A stretch of 39,594 nucleotides of DNA, taken from NCBI GenBank assembly GCA_015488555.1, contig WFNO01000077.1, positions 1 to 39,594 of the forward strand, read 5' to 3'. This stretch comes from Gammaproteobacteria bacterium (lineage in GTDB: Bacteria; Pseudomonadota; Gammaproteobacteria; SZUA-140). This document shows positions 1 through 11,758 of this stretch, piece after piece. The notes beneath the pieces were generated by a model. The model did not search any database and was not told the origin of the DNA. It saw nothing but the letters and a program-made list of their open reading frames with translations. Position 1 is the stretch's first letter, and every line of letters starts with the position of its first letter. The translations under genes and the position numbers were made by a program.

Positions 1-999
1 CATCGCGTCGATGCCAACCCCCAGCGCTGGTGGTTGGTGCGTTCGGCGGAAGGAAACAGTTACGCCAAGTTCCATGTCACTGGCATCGTGCAGGCGACGC
101 GCGAGATCACCCTGGAACTCTTCTATCAAGGGCCTGCGGACGACGCCTTCTCGAACACCCCAATCACGTGGACGGCCGTACTCGGTGCAGGTGGTGGCCG
201 CCGCTGTTTCGACTTCGACAGCGTAACGGAAGTGGATTGCGAAGGCGCCGCGGACACCTGGGATCTGCAAGTGGAGGTGGCCGCGCGCGCTTGGAACATT
301 TGGACCAATGGCGGCGTGCGCGGCAGTGGGCGCGGCGCGGCCTTCGGGCCGTTGGATGCAAGTACCGCCGCGAACTATGCCAGTGGCACGGTCAGTCCCG
401 GCGGTCGCAACATCGTCCGCCTGTACCGGCAGGACAGCACGGGAGGCATATTCGAAGAATATCCCTGGTATGCCTATGACCTGTTGGGTGAGAACAAGCT
501 CTGGCCCAATTATCGCGTCTACGCCATCGATACCGGCAGCGCACACTACAAGCTGCAGATCCTGGGTTATTACGACGAGGCCGGCGTGAGCGGTCATTAC
601 ACCTTGCGTTACGCCGCGCTCGCCGGCAGTCGTTCTTTCGAAACCTTGCAAGTCCGTCTGCGCGAATGGGCGGTGGAGGCCGAGCGTACCCGCGTGCAGC
701 CCGGACCCGTGGTCATCCAGGTCGTCAACGAGGGCCCGCAGGATGTGCACGAGCTGGTGGTGATTCGTACCGATCTCGATCCCGGCCAATTGCCCACCGA
801 TGCCGATGGCAACGTCGACGAAAGTGGCGCTGGCATCGAGATCGTGGGTGAGATCGAGGGCCTCGCCGTGGGCGAGCGGGCCCGAGCCACTTTCGAACTG
901 TCATCGGGGCGTTACGTGTTGCTTTGCAATGTGTGGGATGCCGGCGAAGGGGAGTCCCATTATCGTCGGGGCATGTATACCGCGCTGCTCGTGGAGTGA
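1..999 (+). CDS. HmuY-family protein fused to a C-terminal cupredoxin domain (5' end cut off)
   Basis: The frame is open to the first base, so the N-terminus and any signal peptide lie outside the window; an internal TTG at 34 is not a convincing start. The first ~200 residues resemble the HmuY family (beta-rich, haem-binding in Porphyromonas): aromatic and glycine-rich, with AFGPLDASTAANYASGTV and YPWYAYDLLGENKLWPN, ending in a module like HYTLRYAAL. From about nt 660 a cupredoxin-like domain follows (VNEGPQDVHELVVIRTDLD, then YVLLCNVWD and HYRRGMYT). The four usual type-1 copper ligands are visible: His at nt 748, Cys at 925, His at 958 and Met at 973. I infer an exported copper- or haem-binding protein. 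The next large gene encodes a CbiX-like protein, which fits metal or tetrapyrrole handling. The domain calls come from sequence pattern alone. Confidence 0.75.
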   Translation, partial: HRVDANPQRWWLVRSAEGNSYAKFHVTGIVQATREITLELFYQGPADDAFSNTPITWTAVLGAGGGRRCFDFDSVTEVDCEGAADTWDLQVEVAARAWNIWTNGGVRGSGRGAAFGPLDASTAANYASGTVSPGGRNIVRLYRQDSTGGIFEEYPWYAYDLLGENKLWPNYRVYAIDTGSAHYKLQILGYYDEAGVSGHYTLRYAALAGSRSFETLQVRLREWAVEAERTRVQPGPVVIQVVNEGPQDVHELVVIRTDLDPGQLPTDADGNVDESGAGIEIVGEIEGLAVGERARATFELSSGRYVLLCNVWDAGEGESHYRRGMYTALLVE

Positions 1000-1051: not shown

Positions 1052-1198
1052 ATGAAGCCACGCAAGAGGAGGAGAAATCGTTATCGGCGCTTGCACCGGC
1101 GTCTCGTTCCGGCCAAGCAGGCTTGTCGTAGGATCGGCGAAGGTATCTACGTGACACCGTGCCGCGAGGGGCAGCGATCGGGCGATGGGAGTTCGTGA
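1052..1198 (+). CDS. possible 48-residue arginine-rich small protein
   Basis: An ATG sits 5 nt behind a strong ribosome binding site (GGAAGGAGGG, 1037-1046). The frame runs 48 codons and encodes a very basic peptide beginning MKPRKRRRNRYRRLHRRL. It fills the space between the HmuY-cupredoxin gene and the CbiX-like gene, on the same strand. I do not recognise a family. The case rests on the ribosome binding site and position; Arg-rich frames also arise by chance in GC-rich DNA, so it may be a leader peptide or not a gene. Confidence 0.3.
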   Translation: MKPRKRRRNRYRRLHRRLVPAKQACRRIGEGIYVTPCREGQRSGDGSS

Positions 1199-1234: not shown

Positions 1235-2983
1235 ATGCAAATGAAACAGCGGTGGGCCTTGGTCGGTCTGGGGATGCTGATCGGGTATTTTCTCGTGTTC
1301 CTGATCTGGTTCAGCTTGATGGCCCTGGTGCCGGCGCCGGCATGGGCCAAGGCCGGATTTCTGGTCGTGGCCGGAGATCGGGGCTTTCTCGGCAACCAGG
1401 AACTGGATACCGTGGTGGAACGTTTCGGCCGTTACGCCGCCGCCCGGCTGGCACTCATCGGCAAACATCGTCAAGGGGTGGAAGACTATGCCGGGTACGC
1501 AGAGCGTGCCATGGCGGAATTGGTCCGCGAAGGGGCGACGAAAATCGTGGTCGTTCCCCTGTTCGTGTCTGCTGCAGATGCCACGCTGCAGCGTTATCGC
1601 CACCAGATTCCAGCACGCTTTCAGGGGTTGCCGATCCGTTGGGCGCCGCCCATGGCGGCTAGTCATCTGACGGCTCAGATCCTGCTCGATCGGGTGGCGG
1701 CCTTGAGCCGGCGCCCGGCAGAGGAGCGCCTGGTGGTGGTGGGGGCAGGCGCCTGGGATGAACAAGGGGCACGGCGCATCGAGACGGAATTGCGTGCTTT
1801 GCTGCGCGAAGTGACCGATCGTTTTACCTTCCGTGAGATCACCGTTGAGGTCTACTACGATCCCGATGCGCCCGAGAGTGAAGCCCGCAACGAAGCCGTG
1901 CGGGAAAGAATCGTGCACCTGGCTGCCAAACGTGGGCGCACCTTGCTGGTTCCTTTCATCATCGGGGTCAAGTTCGATGGGCGCATGTCCGTGGAGGGCT
2001 GGTTGCGGCGCCAATTCGGCGCCTACGACATCCAATTGGGGGAAACTGTCTTGCCCCATCCGGAAGTGCTCACTTGGTTGCGGTACACGGCCAATCGCTT
2101 CACACCTGCCACGCGGAACGAAGTGGCCGTGCTGGTGATGCCGCATGGTTCCACTCGCCCTTACAACAGAGGATTGGAGCGTGTCTTGGATCCGCTGCGC
2201 AGCGACTATCGCATCGAAATGGCGCCCGGCATGGGCGATGCGCAGATTCTCCAGCAAGCGGTGTCCAAGTTGGAAGAGGAAGGATATCGGCGCATCGTTT
2301 TCGTGCGGTTCTACGCCCTGGAGGATCACATGAAGGCGCGTACCGACTACATCCTGGGATTGCGTGCCACACCACCACCCGGCGCGGGCAGTCCGCCGCC
2401 CCGCGTGCGCAGCAGCATGGTGTTCGCAAGCTTCGGAGGGTATGAAGAATCACCGCTCATTGCCCGGATTCTGCGCGACAGGATCCTGGAGATCAGCCAG
2501 CGGCCAGCGGAGGAGACCGTGATTCTGCTGGCGCATGGGCGGCGTGAGGACGAGGCCGACCGCCGCTGGCGCGCAGTCATGGAGGCCAACATCGAGCGGA
2601 TCCAGGGTATGTTGGCGCAGCCGTTCCAGAGCATCAAAGCCATGACCCTGCGTGAGGATTGGCCCGAGCAACGGACCCAGGCCCTGGCACGTATCCGGAA
2701 AGAGATCGAAACGGTCAACCGCAACGGGGGCCGGGTGTTGGTGATTTCCAATCGCTTGTACGGTTCCGGGCCCTACCGGCGCTTGCTCGGGAATCTGGAA
2801 TTCGTCATGAACGACCAGGGACTGGTTCCTCATCCACTCATGACCCGCTGGCTGCGCGAAGGTATCGAACGCCTGTTGCCGGGCTTGTTGCGTGCTCAAG
2901 AGCCGGGCGAGGAGGACTCGTTGGAGTTGCCGTCACGGCTGACGGCAGATGAGCAAGCGCCCGATCCAGTAGCTGAACCATAG
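1235..2983 (+). CDS. membrane-anchored protein with four CbiX/SirB-like chelatase modules
   Basis: CbiX/SirB proteins insert cobalt or iron into sirohydrochlorin and are normally small and cytoplasmic. This 582-residue protein starts with a hydrophobic segment (about residues 8-32, ending near VPAPAWA) that looks like a signal peptide or membrane anchor, so the rest probably lies outside the cytoplasm. Four modules follow, near residues 40-147, 165-287, 296-417 and 427-547. Module 3 keeps both family histidines (MPHGST, His304; EDHMKARTD, His365). Module 4 keeps only the first (LAHGRR, His434). Modules 1 and 2 have VVAGDRG and VVGAGAW instead. The ATG at 1235 is preferred because AGGGGGT at 1221-1226 is 8 nt away; GTG 1226 and ATG 1229 are alternatives. 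The HmuY-cupredoxin gene lies upstream on the same strand. Substrate unknown. Confidence 0.75.
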   Translation: MQMKQRWALVGLGMLIGYFLVFLIWFSLMALVPAPAWAKAGFLVVAGDRGFLGNQELDTVVERFGRYAAARLALIGKHRQGVEDYAGYAERAMAELVREGATKIVVVPLFVSAADATLQRYRHQIPARFQGLPIRWAPPMAASHLTAQILLDRVAALSRRPAEERLVVVGAGAWDEQGARRIETELRALLREVTDRFTFREITVEVYYDPDAPESEARNEAVRERIVHLAAKRGRTLLVPFIIGVKFDGRMSVEGWLRRQFGAYDIQLGETVLPHPEVLTWLRYTANRFTPATRNEVAVLVMPHGSTRPYNRGLERVLDPLRSDYRIEMAPGMGDAQILQQAVSKLEEEGYRRIVFVRFYALEDHMKARTDYILGLRATPPPGAGSPPPRVRSSMVFASFGGYEESPLIARILRDRILEISQRPAEETVILLAHGRREDEADRRWRAVMEANIERIQGMLAQPFQSIKAMTLREDWPEQRTQALARIRKEIETVNRNGGRVLVISNRLYGSGPYRRLLGNLEFVMNDQGLVPHPLMTRWLREGIERLLPGLLRAQEPGEEDSLELPSRLTADEQAPDPVAEP

Positions 2984-3819: not shown

Positions 3820-5022
3820 ATGAGCCAGCGCGTACGCCACGCATCACACCTGCAGCGGCTGCGGGTATGCCTCCACGGGACCCAGAATGAAACTGGGGAA
3901 GAAACTGGGACAGAAACTGGGACAGAAACTGGGACAGAAACTGGGATAGAAACTGGGAAAGAGACCGGCAAGGGTGCCAGAGGGTTGGTCTGGTGGTCGA
4001 TGGTGGCACTCTTGTTTGCCGCTTTCCCGGCCTGGGCGGCGAAACACGAATTCGAGATGACCATCGAGGAGGTGAAGATCCAGGTGGCCCCGGGGCTGAG
4101 CTACAACGTCTTCGCCTTCAATGGCCAGGTGCCTGGTCCTCTGTTGCACGTGCGCGAAGGCGACGAGGTGACGGTGCACGTCACCAACAACACCTCGCTG
4201 GCTCATACCGTGCACTGGCACGGCCTCTATCACCATGACAACTGGCGCAACGACGGGGTACCCGCCGTCAGCCAGCCTGCCATCGAACCGGGAGACACCT
4301 TCACCTACCGCTGGATCGCGGACAAGCCCGGCACGCTCTGGTACCACTGTCATGTCAACGTCAACGAACACGTAGGGATCCGCGGCATGTGGGGTCCTAT
4401 CGTGGTGGATCCCAAGACCCCTACGGCCTTGGAGCAACGGGTGACCAAGGACGTGATCATGATGCTCAGCGGCTGGGAGTCCGAGTTCGCCGACAAGTTC
4501 GGTGAGGGCAGTGTGCCCGGCACGGTGGTGGATTTCTTTTCCATCAACGCCAAGGCCTTTCCCCTCTCCCAACCCCTGCGGGTCAAGCGTGACGACGTGG
4601 TGCGGGTGCGCTTCATCGGCGCCGGCGGCGAGATCCACGCCATGCACAGCCACGGCCACGACATGCTCATCACGCACAAGGACGGCCTCCCCTTGCCGGC
4701 CCCCTATGCGGTGGACACGCTGCTGTTCGGCCCCGGCGAGCGTTACGACGCCATCATCGACATGAGCAATTCGGGGCGCTTCATCTTCCACGATCACGTG
4801 GACAAGCACGTGGTCAACGGCAGCAAGTTCCCGGGCGGGGCCATCACCATCATCGAATACGAGGATACGCCTCAGGACGATTGGTACGTGTGGCGCGACA
4901 AGGACTACGATCCAGACTTCTTCTACAGCGAATCGCTGCGCAAGGGTTACGGCATGTTCGAGAATCCACGTTTCAAGGGTGAGCCCTTGCAGCAGCGCCG
5001 GCGCCATCGCAAGGCACGCTGA
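3820..5022 (+). CDS. ncgA: two-domain multicopper oxidase of the nirK cluster (NcgA-like)
   Basis: A 400-residue periplasmic blue copper oxidase. All four multicopper-oxidase copper motifs are visible: HWHG (132-135), WYHCH (174-178), MHSHGH (275-280) and HDHVDKH (324-330). The size fits two-cupredoxin-domain, laccase-like oxidases. It is first in an operon with two cytochromes c and nirK, matching ncgA of Nitrosomonas europaea, where the cluster is linked to nitrite tolerance. Unusually, a signal-like segment (about 55-74) is preceded by some 55 residues containing ETGx repeats. The ATG at 3820 has a good ribosome binding site (GAAGGGGGT); Met61 is a possible later start but lacks basic residues before the hydrophobic run. 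The terminal QQRRRHRKAR is strongly basic. Confidence 0.85.
   Translation: MSQRVRHASHLQRLRVCLHGTQNETGEETGTETGTETGTETGIETGKETGKGARGLVWWSMVALLFAAFPAWAAKHEFEMTIEEVKIQVAPGLSYNVFAFNGQVPGPLLHVREGDEVTVHVTNNTSLAHTVHWHGLYHHDNWRNDGVPAVSQPAIEPGDTFTYRWIADKPGTLWYHCHVNVNEHVGIRGMWGPIVVDPKTPTALEQRVTKDVIMMLSGWESEFADKFGEGSVPGTVVDFFSINAKAFPLSQPLRVKRDDVVRVRFIGAGGEIHAMHSHGHDMLITHKDGLPLPAPYAVDTLLFGPGERYDAIIDMSNSGRFIFHDHVDKHVVNGSKFPGGAITIIEYEDTPQDDWYVWRDKDYDPDFFYSESLRKGYGMFENPRFKGEPLQQRRRHRKAR
3889..3972 (+). repeat. 12-bp in-frame tandem repeat inside ncgA
   Basis: Six copies of the unit GAAACTGGGACA or one-to-two-base variants run from 3889 to 3960, and a degenerate seventh (GAGACCGGCAAG) follows. The unit is a multiple of three and encodes Glu-Thr-Gly-X, so copy-number change would lengthen or shorten the protein without a frameshift. 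It lies before the apparent signal segment. Confidence 0.95.
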
Positions 5023-5034
5023 GGAGGGCTGGCG

Positions 5035-5724
5035 ATGATCCGGTCGATCGGCATGACGGTTGCCTTGCTGTTGCTGCCCGCGGTGGCGCTGGCGGGCGGG
5101 GACGGCCAGCGCCTGCTGCAGGAACGCTGCAGTGGCTGTCACAACCTCACGGGGCCGGCCCCGCAGACCCTGGCCGAATTGTGGGCGCGCAAGGGCCCGG
5201 ATCTGTTCTATGCCGGGAACAAGTACCGGCCGGAATGGGTGGAGCAGTGGTTGCAGGCGCCGCGCCGCATCCGCCCGGCGGGCATGTACTACGGCAATCA
5301 CATCAAACCAGGGCCGGACGGGGACATCATCGACGAGCGCAGCTTGCCCGAGCATCCCCGCCTGGGGGCGGAAGACGCGCGCGCCGTCACCCGCGCCCTC
5401 ATGCAATTGAAGTGGGGCAGCCATCTCATCACCCCCGGGGCCTACAAGCCTGGACGCATTTCCTTGTCCATGGGTGAACTCATGTTCGACAAATTCCGCG
5501 GCTGCCTGGCCTGCCACGAGATCGAGCCCGGCTATGGCGGCCGTTCCGGCCCCGAGGTGTACACCGTCGCCCGGCGCCTGCAGGCGGATTATCTCATCAG
5601 CTACATGCGCAATCCGCAGGCCTGGGATCCACGCATCTTCATGCCCAACAAACATCTCAAGGAACGCGATCTGCAGAAGTTCGTGCATTACTTCCGAGCC
5701 TTGAGCGAGGAGGATTTCCAATGA
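5035..5724 (+). CDS. ncgB: dihaem cytochrome c (NcgB-like)
   Basis: A 229-residue exported cytochrome. The first 20 residues form a signal peptide ending near AVALA. Two haem-attachment motifs are present, CSGCH (32-36) and CLACH (157-161), one per half; Met203 in IFMPNKH is a likely axial ligand of the second haem. It starts 12 nt after ncgA, behind GAGGAGG, and overlaps the next gene by 4 nt (ATGA). By position it matches ncgB of Nitrosomonas europaea and probably passes electrons within the oxidase/nitrite reductase system in the periplasm. Confidence 0.85.
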   Translation: MIRSIGMTVALLLLPAVALAGGDGQRLLQERCSGCHNLTGPAPQTLAELWARKGPDLFYAGNKYRPEWVEQWLQAPRRIRPAGMYYGNHIKPGPDGDIIDERSLPEHPRLGAEDARAVTRALMQLKWGSHLITPGAYKPGRISLSMGELMFDKFRGCLACHEIEPGYGGRSGPEVYTVARRLQADYLISYMRNPQAWDPRIFMPNKHLKERDLQKFVHYFRALSEEDFQ

Positions 5725-6098
5725 CGCCGAGACGCGGATGGTGGAGAGCGGGCGCGTTCGGTGCCGCACTGGCGGCCGCCACGATGGCGGGGCCGTCATC
5801 GGCCGCCGAGCGGGCCGAGGATCTGTACAAGACCTATTGCTGGCAGTGCCACGGCATGAAGGGGGACGGCAACGGTATCAATGTACGCGACATGTCGGTA
5901 CAGCCGCGCGATCACACCGATGCCAGGGCCATGTCGGCGCGCACGGACGAGGAACTGTTCACGGCCATCAAGAAGGGCGGGCAGGCCATCAACAAGTCGG
6001 TGTTGATGCCGCCCTGGGATGGCGTCCTGAGCGACGAGGAGATTCACAGCCTGGTGCGCTACCTGCGGGAGCTGTGCCAGTGCCGCCATGGAGGCTGA
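5721..6098 (+). CDS. ncgC: monohaem cytochrome c (NcgC-like)
   Basis: A 125-residue exported class I cytochrome. It has a signal peptide to about residue 29, a CWQCH haem motif (40-44) and a probable axial Met96 in LMPPWDG. The fold fits small periplasmic electron carriers related to c551/c552. Its ATG overlaps the ncgB stop codon, indicating translational coupling. The C-terminus has two extra cysteines (LCQCRHGG). It probably donates electrons to NirK or links it to the oxidase; the direction is not visible from sequence. Confidence 0.85.
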   Translation: MTPRRGWWRAGAFGAALAAATMAGPSSAAERAEDLYKTYCWQCHGMKGDGNGINVRDMSVQPRDHTDARAMSARTDEELFTAIKKGGQAINKSVLMPPWDGVLSDEEIHSLVRYLRELCQCRHGG

Positions 6099-6101
6099 GA
6101 T

Positions 6102-6139
6102 TAACCCCTCCTGCAACCGATGGGGGGCGGGAGGGGTTA
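6102..6139 (+). other. intercistronic hairpin between ncgC and nirK
   Basis: TAACCCCTCC (6102-6111) pairs perfectly with GGAGGGGTTA (6130-6139) over an 18-nt loop. It lies 3 nt after the ncgC stop and about 40 nt before the nirK start. No T-run follows, so it is unlikely to be a full terminator. It may protect the nirK portion of the mRNA or mark a processing point. Confidence 0.55.
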
Positions 6140-6181
6140 GGCCATGGGAAGCCTTTCAACATCAAGAAAAGGAGAGGAAGA

Positions 6182-7180
6182 ATGAAACGAAGCATCGAGA
6201 GCAGCAGCAAGATCGCCGTCGCCGGCCTGCTGGCCGCGGGTCTGGGATTGACGGCCACGGTGGCAGCGGCCAAGACCGTGCAGGTGACCTTCGTCGCCAA
6301 GGAGACCACGGTTGTGATTGCCAACGACGGGACCACTTATCCGGCCTGGACCTTCGACGGCATGATTCCTGGCAAGGTGGTGCGCGTGCGGGAAGGGGAT
6401 GTGGTGGACTTCAAGCTCATCAATCCCAAGGAGAACAAGAATTCCCACTCCATCGACTTCCATGCCGCCGAAGTGGACGTGCTGGATGAATTCGCACCGG
6501 TCAAGCCGGGCCAGACCAAGCATTTCAAGTTCGAGGCCAAGCGTGCCGGTGTCTACATGTACCACTGTGGCGCCGCCACCATGGCCCAGCACATCGCCCG
6601 CGGCATGTACGGCATCATCATCGTCGATCCCAAGGAGGGTTACAGCGAGAAGTACCCCAAACCGGACCGCGAATACGTGCTGATTCAGGGCCAGTATTTC
6701 CCCGATGCCGAGGACAAAATGGCCATGATCGAGAATCGTGGCTGGGCCGGCTCTCTCATCAATGGGGTCATGTTCCACTATGACCCGGTGCACGATCCCG
6801 ACGCCAGCCTGGTGCTGGAGGCCAAGCCCGGCGAGCGTGTGCGTTTCTACTTCGTCAACGCCAACATCAACATGCCCGTGGCCCTGCATCCCATCGCCGG
6901 CATCTGGGACCGGGTCTACATCAACGGCAATCCGGAGAACGTGCTCTACGACGTGCAGACCTACAACGTGGCGGTCGCCGAGGCCTCCACCTTCGATCTG
7001 GTCTCGCCGGCCGACCGGCCCACCAACAACGCCATCGTGGATCACACCATGAGCGCCGCCATGCGCGGGGCCATCACGGTGCTGATGAACAAGCCCGATG
7101 CCGATCCCAATGCCGGTCGCGGCGACAACATCCTCCCTCGTGCCAAAATCGAGCCCAAGGGCATCGTGTCCGCCCATTGA
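6182..7180 (+). CDS. nirK: copper-containing nitrite reductase NirK
   Basis: Reduces nitrite to nitric oxide in the periplasm. The 332-residue protein has a signal peptide ending near residue 30 (TVAAA) and two cupredoxin domains. All copper and catalytic residues are present: type-1 copper His89, Cys129, His137 and Met142; type-2 copper His94, His128 and His288; catalytic Asp92 (HSIDFH) and His236 (ALHPIAG). The short length and the context resemble the Nitrosomonas-type NirK rather than the longer denitrifier enzymes. It is last in the NsrR-controlled operon, starts behind AGGAGAGGAAG and is followed by a strong terminator. No norB or nsrR lies in the window. Confidence 0.95.
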   Translation: MKRSIESSSKIAVAGLLAAGLGLTATVAAAKTVQVTFVAKETTVVIANDGTTYPAWTFDGMIPGKVVRVREGDVVDFKLINPKENKNSHSIDFHAAEVDVLDEFAPVKPGQTKHFKFEAKRAGVYMYHCGAATMAQHIARGMYGIIIVDPKEGYSEKYPKPDREYVLIQGQYFPDAEDKMAMIENRGWAGSLINGVMFHYDPVHDPDASLVLEAKPGERVRFYFVNANINMPVALHPIAGIWDRVYINGNPENVLYDVQTYNVAVAEASTFDLVSPADRPTNNAIVDHTMSAAMRGAITVLMNKPDADPNAGRGDNILPRAKIEPKGIVSAH

Positions 7181-10178: not shown

Positions 10179-10718
10179 GATTCACCTCTCGGGTTGGGTA
10201 CCCCGCTCGTTTTCCCTCCGTGAGGCACGCGCCCTGTGGCATACCTCAGTGGCATACCATGGTCCCGCATCCGGTGACCGGTGGTCCTGAGCGGTTCTCG
10301 TCGCGTGGCCACTGAGCCCCGAACTACGAGTGCTTGGAAGCGAAGGGACTGGAGGCGGAACGGCCCGCGCGGCCACGCGCCCAGGGAGCAGGCGACATGC
10401 TGGAGGGAAGGATCTCGTCTTCGGGTCCTCCTGACAAAGATGGCCGCGGTATCCGGATCGGCGTTCCGTCTCGCGGCCTTGATCGCGGATCCTCGCGCCA
10501 TCATAACATATTCCGGTGGTGAGGATTCATCCGCGCTGCCTCTGAGTTTCCCGGTGGCATTCACCCATGGATTACAAGGTTTCGAAAGGTTTCAAGAGGG
10601 GATCCATGTACGTGTGTGGAATGGGTGCGCCTGCAAGTGGATTTTTGTCTGCCTGCGGATACCGGTATCATGAAGGCCTGCCCGCTGCGGACATTGCCTC
10701 GTCGATTCAGGAGTGGTC
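10179..10718. other. 540-bp divergent intergenic region
   Basis: It separates tal (-) from the methionine-synthase-domain operon (+). Several open frames cross it on both strands, but none has a recognisable family or a good ribosome binding site near 5' ends. A weak promoter candidate lies at 10479-10507. Nothing else was recognised. Confidence 0.5.
10479..10507 (+). promoter_or_regulatory. candidate promoter for the operon starting at 10719
   Basis: TTGATC (10479-10484) and CATAAC (10502-10507) are 17 bp apart, each matching the sigma70 consensus at 4 of 6 positions. The start site would be near 10514, about 205 nt before the first ATG. Weak evidence. Confidence 0.25.
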
Positions 10719-10940
10719 ATGTATCTGAGACGGAAAGAATCGGGCGATCTGGTGGAAGTGCTCGATGTACGCGCCCTGGTGGACCCCTGCCGGGAACACA
10801 TACCCGGCCGGCTGCATGCCGGAGAGGAGTTGCAGGAGCCGGCGGAGTACGCCAAATCCGAACTGGAGTTTCCATCGGGGGAGCCGCTGCCACGGTGCTG
10901 GCTCGATCCCCATTACCGGGAAGAGGCCCTGCGGCGCTGA
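10719..10940 (+). CDS. small conserved protein of unknown function
   Basis: A 73-residue soluble protein, MYLRRKESGDLVEVLD to the end DPHYREEALRR, with a conserved-looking core HAGEELQEPAEY and FPSGEPLPRCWLDP. I believe similar short proteins occur in related proteobacteria, sometimes labelled acetyltransferase, but I see no acetyltransferase motif at this length. The ATG is 5 nt behind AGGAG. It ends 5 nt before the GTG of the methionine synthase activation domain gene, so the two are probably translated together. That makes it a candidate partner of that domain. Confidence 0.65.
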   Translation: MYLRRKESGDLVEVLDVRALVDPCREHIPGRLHAGEELQEPAEYAKSELEFPSGEPLPRCWLDPHYREEALRR

Positions 10941-10945
10941 GCGAG

Positions 10946-11758
10946 GTGGCACACGACAACCCGGTACCCGAGCCGCCGTTCTGGGGCAGCAAGTGCCTGG
11001 AGCACGTGCCCCTGCGCAGTATCGTTCCCTACATCAACCGCAACGCGCTGTACAAGTTCCAGTGGGGCTTCAAGCCGCAGGGCCGCTCGCCCGAGGAATA
11101 CCAGCGCTGGGCGCGCCTGGAACTGGATCCCATTCTCAAGCGCCTGGTGGCTCGCAGTGAGGAGGAACAGATCTTGCAGCCACAGGCGGTGTATGGCTAC
11201 TTCCCCTGCCAGTCGCAAGGTGACGATCTCATCGTCTATGCCGATCCGGAGGGGCGCGAGGAACGCTGTCGTTTCACCTTCCCGCGCCAGGCCAAGGGCC
11301 GGCACCTGTGTATCGCGGATTTCTTCCGGCCGGTGGCTTCGGGAGAGATGGACGTGGTGGCCTTCCAACTGGTGACGGTGGGGCAGAAGGCCGCGGATTT
11401 CGCCCGCCGGCTGTTCGAACAGGACCAGTACCAGGAATATCTCTTCTGGCATGGTCTCAACGTAGAGGCCACCGAGGGATTGGCGGAGTTCGTGCACAAA
11501 CGCATCCGTACCGAGCTGGGTTTCGGCGGGGAGGATCACCGGGTCATCGGTGAGATGATCAAGCAAAAATACCGCGGTTCGCGCTATTCCTTCGGCTATC
11601 CGGCCTGTCCCAATCTGGCGGATCAGGCCAAGATCCTGGAATTGTTGGATGCCGAGCGGATCGGGGTGGTGATGGGCGAGGCCGACCAGCTGTGGCCGGA
11701 GGAGAGCACCAGTGCCATCGTCGTGCACCATCCACAGGCCAAGTATTTCAGTGTATGA
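10946..11758 (+). CDS. free-standing methionine synthase (MetH) activation domain
   Basis: In MetH this C-terminal domain binds S-adenosylmethionine and helps re-methylate inactive cob(II)alamin. Here 270 residues are essentially only that domain: AVYGYFPCQSQGDDLIVY, FPRQAKGRHLCIADFF, LFWHGLNVEATEGLAEF, the AdoMet-binding RYSFGYPACPN and the terminal TSAIVVHHPQAKYF. No homocysteine, folate or cobalamin domain is present in this frame or upstream. The frame is open back past 10616, but that extension overlaps the small upstream gene; GTG 10946, 5 nt after that gene's stop, fits better. It is either one half of a split MetH or a reactivator for another corrinoid enzyme. Confidence 0.85.
   Translation: MAHDNPVPEPPFWGSKCLEHVPLRSIVPYINRNALYKFQWGFKPQGRSPEEYQRWARLELDPILKRLVARSEEEQILQPQAVYGYFPCQSQGDDLIVYADPEGREERCRFTFPRQAKGRHLCIADFFRPVASGEMDVVAFQLVTVGQKAADFARRLFEQDQYQEYLFWHGLNVEATEGLAEFVHKRIRTELGFGGEDHRVIGEMIKQKYRGSRYSFGYPACPNLADQAKILELLDAERIGVVMGEADQLWPEESTSAIVVHHPQAKYFSV

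Follow-up and report, generated by a model that had tools for sequence, protein, structure and literature searches.

In textbooks, class II chelatases are cytoplasmic enzymes. SirB/CbiX-L of Bacillus, a sirohydrochlorin chelatase, is cytoplasmic and built as one two-lobed unit, and, as in canonical two-lobed class II enzymes generally, both of its catalytic histidines are located in one lobe (PMC7689651; PMC4063343). A class II chelatase outside the cytoplasm is CbiK-P, the periplasmic cobaltochelatase of Desulfovibrio vulgaris (2xvz; PMC4063343), which is also a single two-lobed unit, and DR2241 of Deinococcus (2jh3) is a chelatase-like protein with multiple domains.

The first direct demonstration of enzymatic heme dechelation was reported only in 2025, and concerned a class I chelatase from Bacteroidota of the gut (PMC12583661; PMC13227078). 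This enzyme, HmuS, belongs to the CobN/ChlH proteins of class I, is about 1,470 aa long and takes Fe(II) out of heme (PMC12583661); which donor supplies its electrons in the cell is still unsettled (PMC13227078). The corresponding operon, hmuYRSTUV, combines a TonB receptor, the HmuY lipoprotein and an exported chelatase-family protein (PMC12583661; PMC13227078) and, as described, contains neither a cupredoxin domain nor HemP.

Here we analyze an operon of a gammaproteobacterium that shares these three components and has both a cupredoxin domain and HemP. Its chelatase-family protein, CbiX4, is 582 aa long and, unlike HmuS, has a class II fold; no sequence relation between the two could be detected. 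With a probability of about one half (0.52), we propose that HmuS has given way in this hmu-type operon to a class II chelatase that arose by duplication and that would bind heme in the periplasm and release the iron.

An hmu-type operon across two contigs

The window, meaning the whole stretch of 39,594 nucleotides under analysis (contig C77), starts inside the HmuY-cupredoxin gene. Given that its start and the end of contig C83 share an exact overlap of 151 bases, the operon can be completed across the two contigs, and the joined locus reads hemP - TonB-dependent receptor - small membrane protein - HmuY-cupredoxin lipoprotein - CbiX4 (Table 1). HemP lies just upstream of the receptor on C83 (Pfam hemP, 74.7 bits).

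Table 1. Features of the CbiX4 operon; coordinates refer to the window unless another contig is named.
Feature	Coordinates	Strand	Basis
TonB-dependent receptor	G000:C83:1122-3176	-	genome's best relative of a homologue's TonB receptor
HmuY-cupredoxin lipoprotein, C-terminal 332 aa	1..999	+	ORF open at window start; overlap with contig G000:C83
Cupredoxin domain	628..996	+	ligands H, C, H, M at nt 748-750, 925-927, 958-960, 973-975
Small Arg-rich ORF between hmuY and cbiX4, 48 aa, doubtful gene	1052..1198	+	ORF only; no Pfam match
CbiX4, putatively exported, tandem-duplicated class II chelatase-like protein, 582 aa	1235..2983	+	ORF, Pfam, model, Foldseek, profiles
Alternative CbiX4 starts, near purine-rich stretch	ATG 1229, GTG 1226	+	sequence
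CbiX4 N-terminal export segment	1235..1348	+	sequence; helix 2-31 in model; signal peptides of Nitrospira homologues
Module 1, first lobe of N-terminal half; first-position histidine lost; conserved DRGFLGNQ	1349..1711	+	profiles, alignment
Module 2, second lobe of N-terminal half; no first-position histidine; invariant H275	1712..2113	+	profiles, alignment
Module 3, first lobe of C-terminal half; MPHG, GMGD, MK	2114..2503	+	profiles, alignment
Module 4, second lobe of C-terminal half; AHG, REDW	2504..2902	+	profiles, alignment

The gene next to cbiX4 encodes a HmuY-fold lipoprotein, as judged from Pfam, from the Foldseek result of a homologue and from the lipobox (LFLSAC) in its N-terminal part on C83. 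Pfam HmuY scores 43.5 bits on this C83 half and 61.3 bits on the homologue at locus L018, which is predicted as a HmuY fold plus a cupredoxin and matches HmuY (6ewm/3h8t), auracyanin and EfeO. The fold is thus that of the HmuY hemophore family. Unlike 6ewm and 3h8t, however, the window's protein has an insertion of ~130 aa, inferred from a split Pfam match, as well as the fused cupredoxin, and the heme ligands of HmuY hemophores are not recognizable in it. Among the aligned cupredoxin rows, the ligands C, H and M are present in 13/13 and the first H in 12/13. Within the paper library searched, no paper names both HmuY and cupredoxin. The adjoining genes, the Pfam match and the copper ligands bear out the pairing with a HmuY-cupredoxin protein that was asserted in the preliminary description. 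Its further suggestion of an undescribed envelope metal system holds as far as an envelope metal or tetrapyrrole system with a TonB receptor is concerned, but this system is a variant of the hmu operon.

The TonB receptor adjoins HmuY at this locus, as it also does in all of the 11 HmuY loci fetched from the class (L063-L073). No CobN-type HmuS was found in the window's genome and CbiX4 occupies the slot. No MotA/ExbB-like or DUF2149 partners were seen at the window's locus; both occur in L063, a sister locus of the HmuS type, and L015 also has a MotA/ExbB-like protein. The genome contains HemH and therefore makes its own heme, and no Fur box scored above shuffles before the window's operon, good matches being confined to certain other loci (e.g., L072, L073 and the cupredoxin gene of L015). 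We count both the heme synthesis and the lack of an evident Fur box against heme dechelation. FeoB and FTR1 were considered as iron importers and rejected, as neither had a match in the window's genome.

Among receptor families, those for B12 and heme give the highest scores on the receptor of the window's genome, all below cut-off, and the homologous receptor at L018 scores best with the heme family, likewise below cut-off. The B12 scores, together with the fact that known members of the chelatase family are metal insertion enzymes, could be taken to mean that CbiX4 works in the periplasm by charging scavenged tetrapyrroles with a metal (Co, Fe, Zn), or that it has a part in uptake of the cobalamin type. 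We regard this as very improbable, given that no cobalamin riboswitch was detected in the window or before the receptor in the eight loci tested, that HemP and HmuY mark heme, and that the forward reaction would require a supply of free porphyrin.

Downstream of the operon (3820-7180), a row of genes encodes a multicopper oxidase, which has an ETG-type repeat close to its N-terminus, along with two c-type cytochromes and a NirK-like protein. This cluster was rejected as a fixed partner of CbiX4, since L005 and L006 have other genes following CbiX4, although in L016, and apparently L017 too, a multicopper oxidase lies on its upstream side. Further along the window, the activation domain of B12-dependent methionine synthase is encoded by a separate ORF (10616-11758).

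Export, fold and tandem duplication of CbiX4

Residues 1-38 of CbiX4 contain a single long hydrophobic segment, preceded by KQR and closing with PAPAWA/K, which may be either a cleavable signal peptide or an uncleaved N-in/C-out anchor. Several Nitrospira homologues open with a classical signal peptide (e.g., MYKQAISVIAAVVILGASWMPASAAAPSK). Taken together, the export segment and these signal peptides place the chelatase domains outside the cytoplasm, as far as sequence can tell, and thereby set CbiX4 and its homologues apart from the cytoplasmic CbiX/SirB proteins. This agrees with the location given in the preliminary description; homologues that lack the long anchor are exported as well.

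The same description had divided the protein into four CbiX-like modules, and this division is confirmed. Pfam CbiX scores 26.2 bits on the full sequence (cut-off 22). An AlphaFold model built from 20 sequences (pLDDT 86.1, pTM 0.83) consists of an N-terminal helix followed by four consecutive alpha/beta domains, and in a Foldseek search with this model the top eight matches are all Bacillus SirB, the closest solved structure (E down to 2.8e-5; TM 0.66-0.68 over SirB). Lower in the list come ferrochelatase and the periplasmic CbiK of Desulfovibrio; CbiK-P is 13-17% identical to CbiX4 in structural alignment, and the match to DR2241 is weak and partial (TM 0.27-0.34). Searched singly, the modules give less: module 1 is weak at 21.9 bits, and modules 2 and 4 have no Pfam CbiX match. 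No family other than CbiX fits them better. A search of the window's genome for a further CbiX gene gave cbiX4 as its sole match.

Profile comparison of the modules with one another pairs module 1 with module 3 (94.5%, E 1.5e-8) and module 2 with module 4 (96.9%, E 2.9e-10), and the other four pairs give no match. Given this pairing, CbiX4 is a class II chelatase whose two-lobed unit has been duplicated in tandem, and not a set of four independent repeats. The two alpha/beta lobes of a class II chelatase, recognized by the model and by the Foldseek matches to SirB, are thus present as two such units in tandem. No Pfam match to the class I domain CobN-Mg_chel was found in CbiX4. Homology to the head/neck part of HmuS was also considered and rejected, as hhalign detects no sequence relation (probability 0.4% against the N-terminal parts of CobN-type proteins).

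A changed histidine site

CbiX4 shares with SirB the first-position HG motif, but it carries one invariant first-position histidine in each lobe of its C-terminal half. H304 (module 3, MPHG, nt 2144-2146) and H434 (module 4, AHG, nt 2534-2536) are invariant in 20/20 sequences and sit in different lobes, so that no catalytic histidine pair is conserved within one lobe. The first-position histidine is absent from modules 1 and 2 in every homologue (n=20 sequences). The second site of module 3, position 365, is occupied by H in 11 of the 20 sequences, by Q in 6 and by S in 3. Compared with the one-lobe pair of canonical enzymes, the non-conserved second position makes the site of CbiX4 a changed one. 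The statement in the preliminary description that only module 3 keeps both histidines is accordingly true of the window's sequence (H304, H365) but not of the family, in which position 365 varies and the constant residues are H304 and H434. Both canonical histidine motifs are retained in the two-module CbiX proteins (CbiX2) of Nitrospira and of locus L067.

The changed site bears on whether CbiX4 is an enzyme at all. It may instead be a non-catalytic periplasmic heme carrier or buffer, in which the cleft was kept and the chemistry lost, and which would pass the heme received from the receptor on to a step at the inner membrane or to the assembly of cytochrome c. The non-conserved canonical pair and the N-terminal half devoid of first-position histidines argue for this, the duplicated architecture would suit two bound tetrapyrroles, periplasmic binding proteins turn up among the Foldseek matches with weaker E-values, and a genome that makes its own heme is in line with it. 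The invariant histidines in both lobes of the C-terminal half, however, point to a retained metal or porphyrin contact, no heme ABC transporter was seen adjoining CbiX4 in the window's locus, and HmuS-type proteins fill the same slot in sister operons. Such a carrier is the main rival to heme dechelation, and we hold it to be doubtful on balance. The suggestion of a scaffold rather than an enzyme in the preliminary description is therefore left divided, with the altered histidines favoring a binder and the operon position favoring a dechelatase.

Sister operons and the proposed function

What fills the slot downstream of receptor and HmuY differs among the 11 fetched loci. In L063 and L064 it is a CobN-type protein of 1,334-1,347 aa, and the best PDB match of the one in L063 is the HmuS heme dechelatase 9d26 (E 1.4e-122). 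Two CbiX2 proteins take the position in L067. In L068, receptor and HmuY are followed by one HutZ/HugZ-type and one periplasmic binding protein and by HemS, with similar ORFs in L069 and part of the set in L073. L066 and L019 are one and the same CbiX4 locus, and L070, L071 and L072 show no clear counterpart in the slot. Across 39 genomes, full-length CbiX4 was found in 3, a CobN-type protein in 5 others and both together in none, although these numbers are small. The DNA after HmuY in L065 (7102-8346) holds a CobN-type gene cut to its first 414 aa, with a cupredoxin-like ORF behind it; the short gene is either decayed or encodes a form with head and neck only.

Given the same slot in sister operons and the chemistry known for HmuS, replacement of HmuS by CbiX4 is the simplest account. 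The gene context (HmuY, HemP, the receptor score and the HutZ/HemS sister loci) supports heme acquisition as the likely role of the system, and slot and fold suggest that CbiX4 probably removes iron rather than carrying heme. According to this proposal, cbiX4 would be the last gene of an hmu-type operon hemP - hmuR - hmuY-cupredoxin - cbiX4. The HmuY lipoprotein would capture heme and the TonB receptor would carry it across the outer membrane, so that CbiX4 would meet it in the periplasm. Heme could then be bound in the cleft between modules 3 and 4, with H304 and H434 as likely contacts to iron or porphyrin, and CbiX4 would release the iron and leave the porphyrin behind. The cupredoxin domain may pass electrons to or from the heme iron. 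Our confidence is only moderate because of the changed active site, the missing FeoB and FTR1 matches and the Nitrospira loci without HmuY described below.

A broader version is more tentative still, and we place it somewhat below even odds: that periplasmic heme dechelation evolved independently a second time, in Gammaproteobacteria and Nitrospirota, by means of a class II chelatase that is duplicated and has an invariant histidine in each lobe, together with a hemophore-fused cupredoxin that passes electrons. If true, an unrelated chelatase fold in the HmuS slot would mean that the stripping of iron from heme evolved more than once, and outside the gut too, and class II chelatases would have an envelope branch. 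The HmuY-fused cupredoxin, which is found in both domain orders, is a concrete candidate for the missing redox partner of dechelation.

Distribution of CbiX4 and its gene neighborhoods

A search of genome contigs with the single CbiX4 sequence found nothing. Scanning a collection of 84,980 species with a three-sequence alignment as query retrieved 20 CbiX4 loci, from Gammaproteobacteria, Manganitrophaceae and Nitrospira-type Nitrospirota, and the protein tree is mostly well supported. In all 17 loci with enough flanking sequence, a TonB receptor lies on the same strand within about 4.5 kb of CbiX4; the remaining three are cut by contig ends. The conserved pairing with HmuY, which the preliminary description named as a check, extends to most gammaproteobacterial loci and to Manganitrophaceae, but not to Nitrospira, where the TonB receptor is kept and neither HmuY nor HemP was found in the flanks. 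HemP is located upstream in the operons of L013, L015, L016 and L019, and directly before CbiX4 in L021 and L024, which have no HmuY in the flank.

Within the HmuY-type loci the cupredoxin may be fused after HmuY, fused before it (L020) or encoded separately (L015, L017, L030), and this association in several arrangements suggests that the two functions are tied together. The Manganitrophaceae protein with the cupredoxin preceding HmuY (L020:4393-5976) has the reverse domain order of the window's protein.

Some Nitrospira loci have the order TonB - CbiX4 - receptor - CbiX2 - PepSY plus a MacB-type exporter, and others ExbD - DUF2141 - receptor - CbiX4. One Nitrospira cluster (L027:3610-15332) comprises an AraC regulator, an HlyD adaptor, an ABC ATPase, two MacB-type permeases, TonB, CbiX4, the receptor, a CbiX2 with both histidines and a PepSY protein. 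This layout resembles periplasmic siderophore release and recycling, as in pyoverdine systems. It can be speculated from these clusters that CbiX4 frees iron or another metal from a non-heme metallophore, the free ligand being recycled, and that heme is not its general substrate. We consider this unlikely, given that HmuY and HemP accompany the gammaproteobacterial loci, that sister receptor-HmuY loci come with HutZ/HemS, and that tetrapyrroles are what class II chelatases are known to act on. The proposed heme dechelation provides a function hypothesis for the poorly annotated CbiX4 family in Nitrospira.

A genome of the same family encodes a two-module CbiX of 293 aa with a signal-peptide-like start, closest to modules 3-4 (L007:9635-10516), and the stretch examined there showed no receptor. 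In three loci, CbiX4 is preceded by a gene for a conserved small protein of ~80-90 aa (L016:9706-9945, L017:1820-2089 and L019:4708-4983), the L016 copy having no Pfam match. Both two-domain CbiX proteins of L067 (5417-8314) keep the canonical motifs HGS and PLFLTV..H. A DUF2325 protein, assigned by Pfam, is encoded near receptor or CbiX2 genes (L016:2114-3412 and L067:4090-5433), and look-alike ORFs are present in the HmuY loci L063, L064 and L065.
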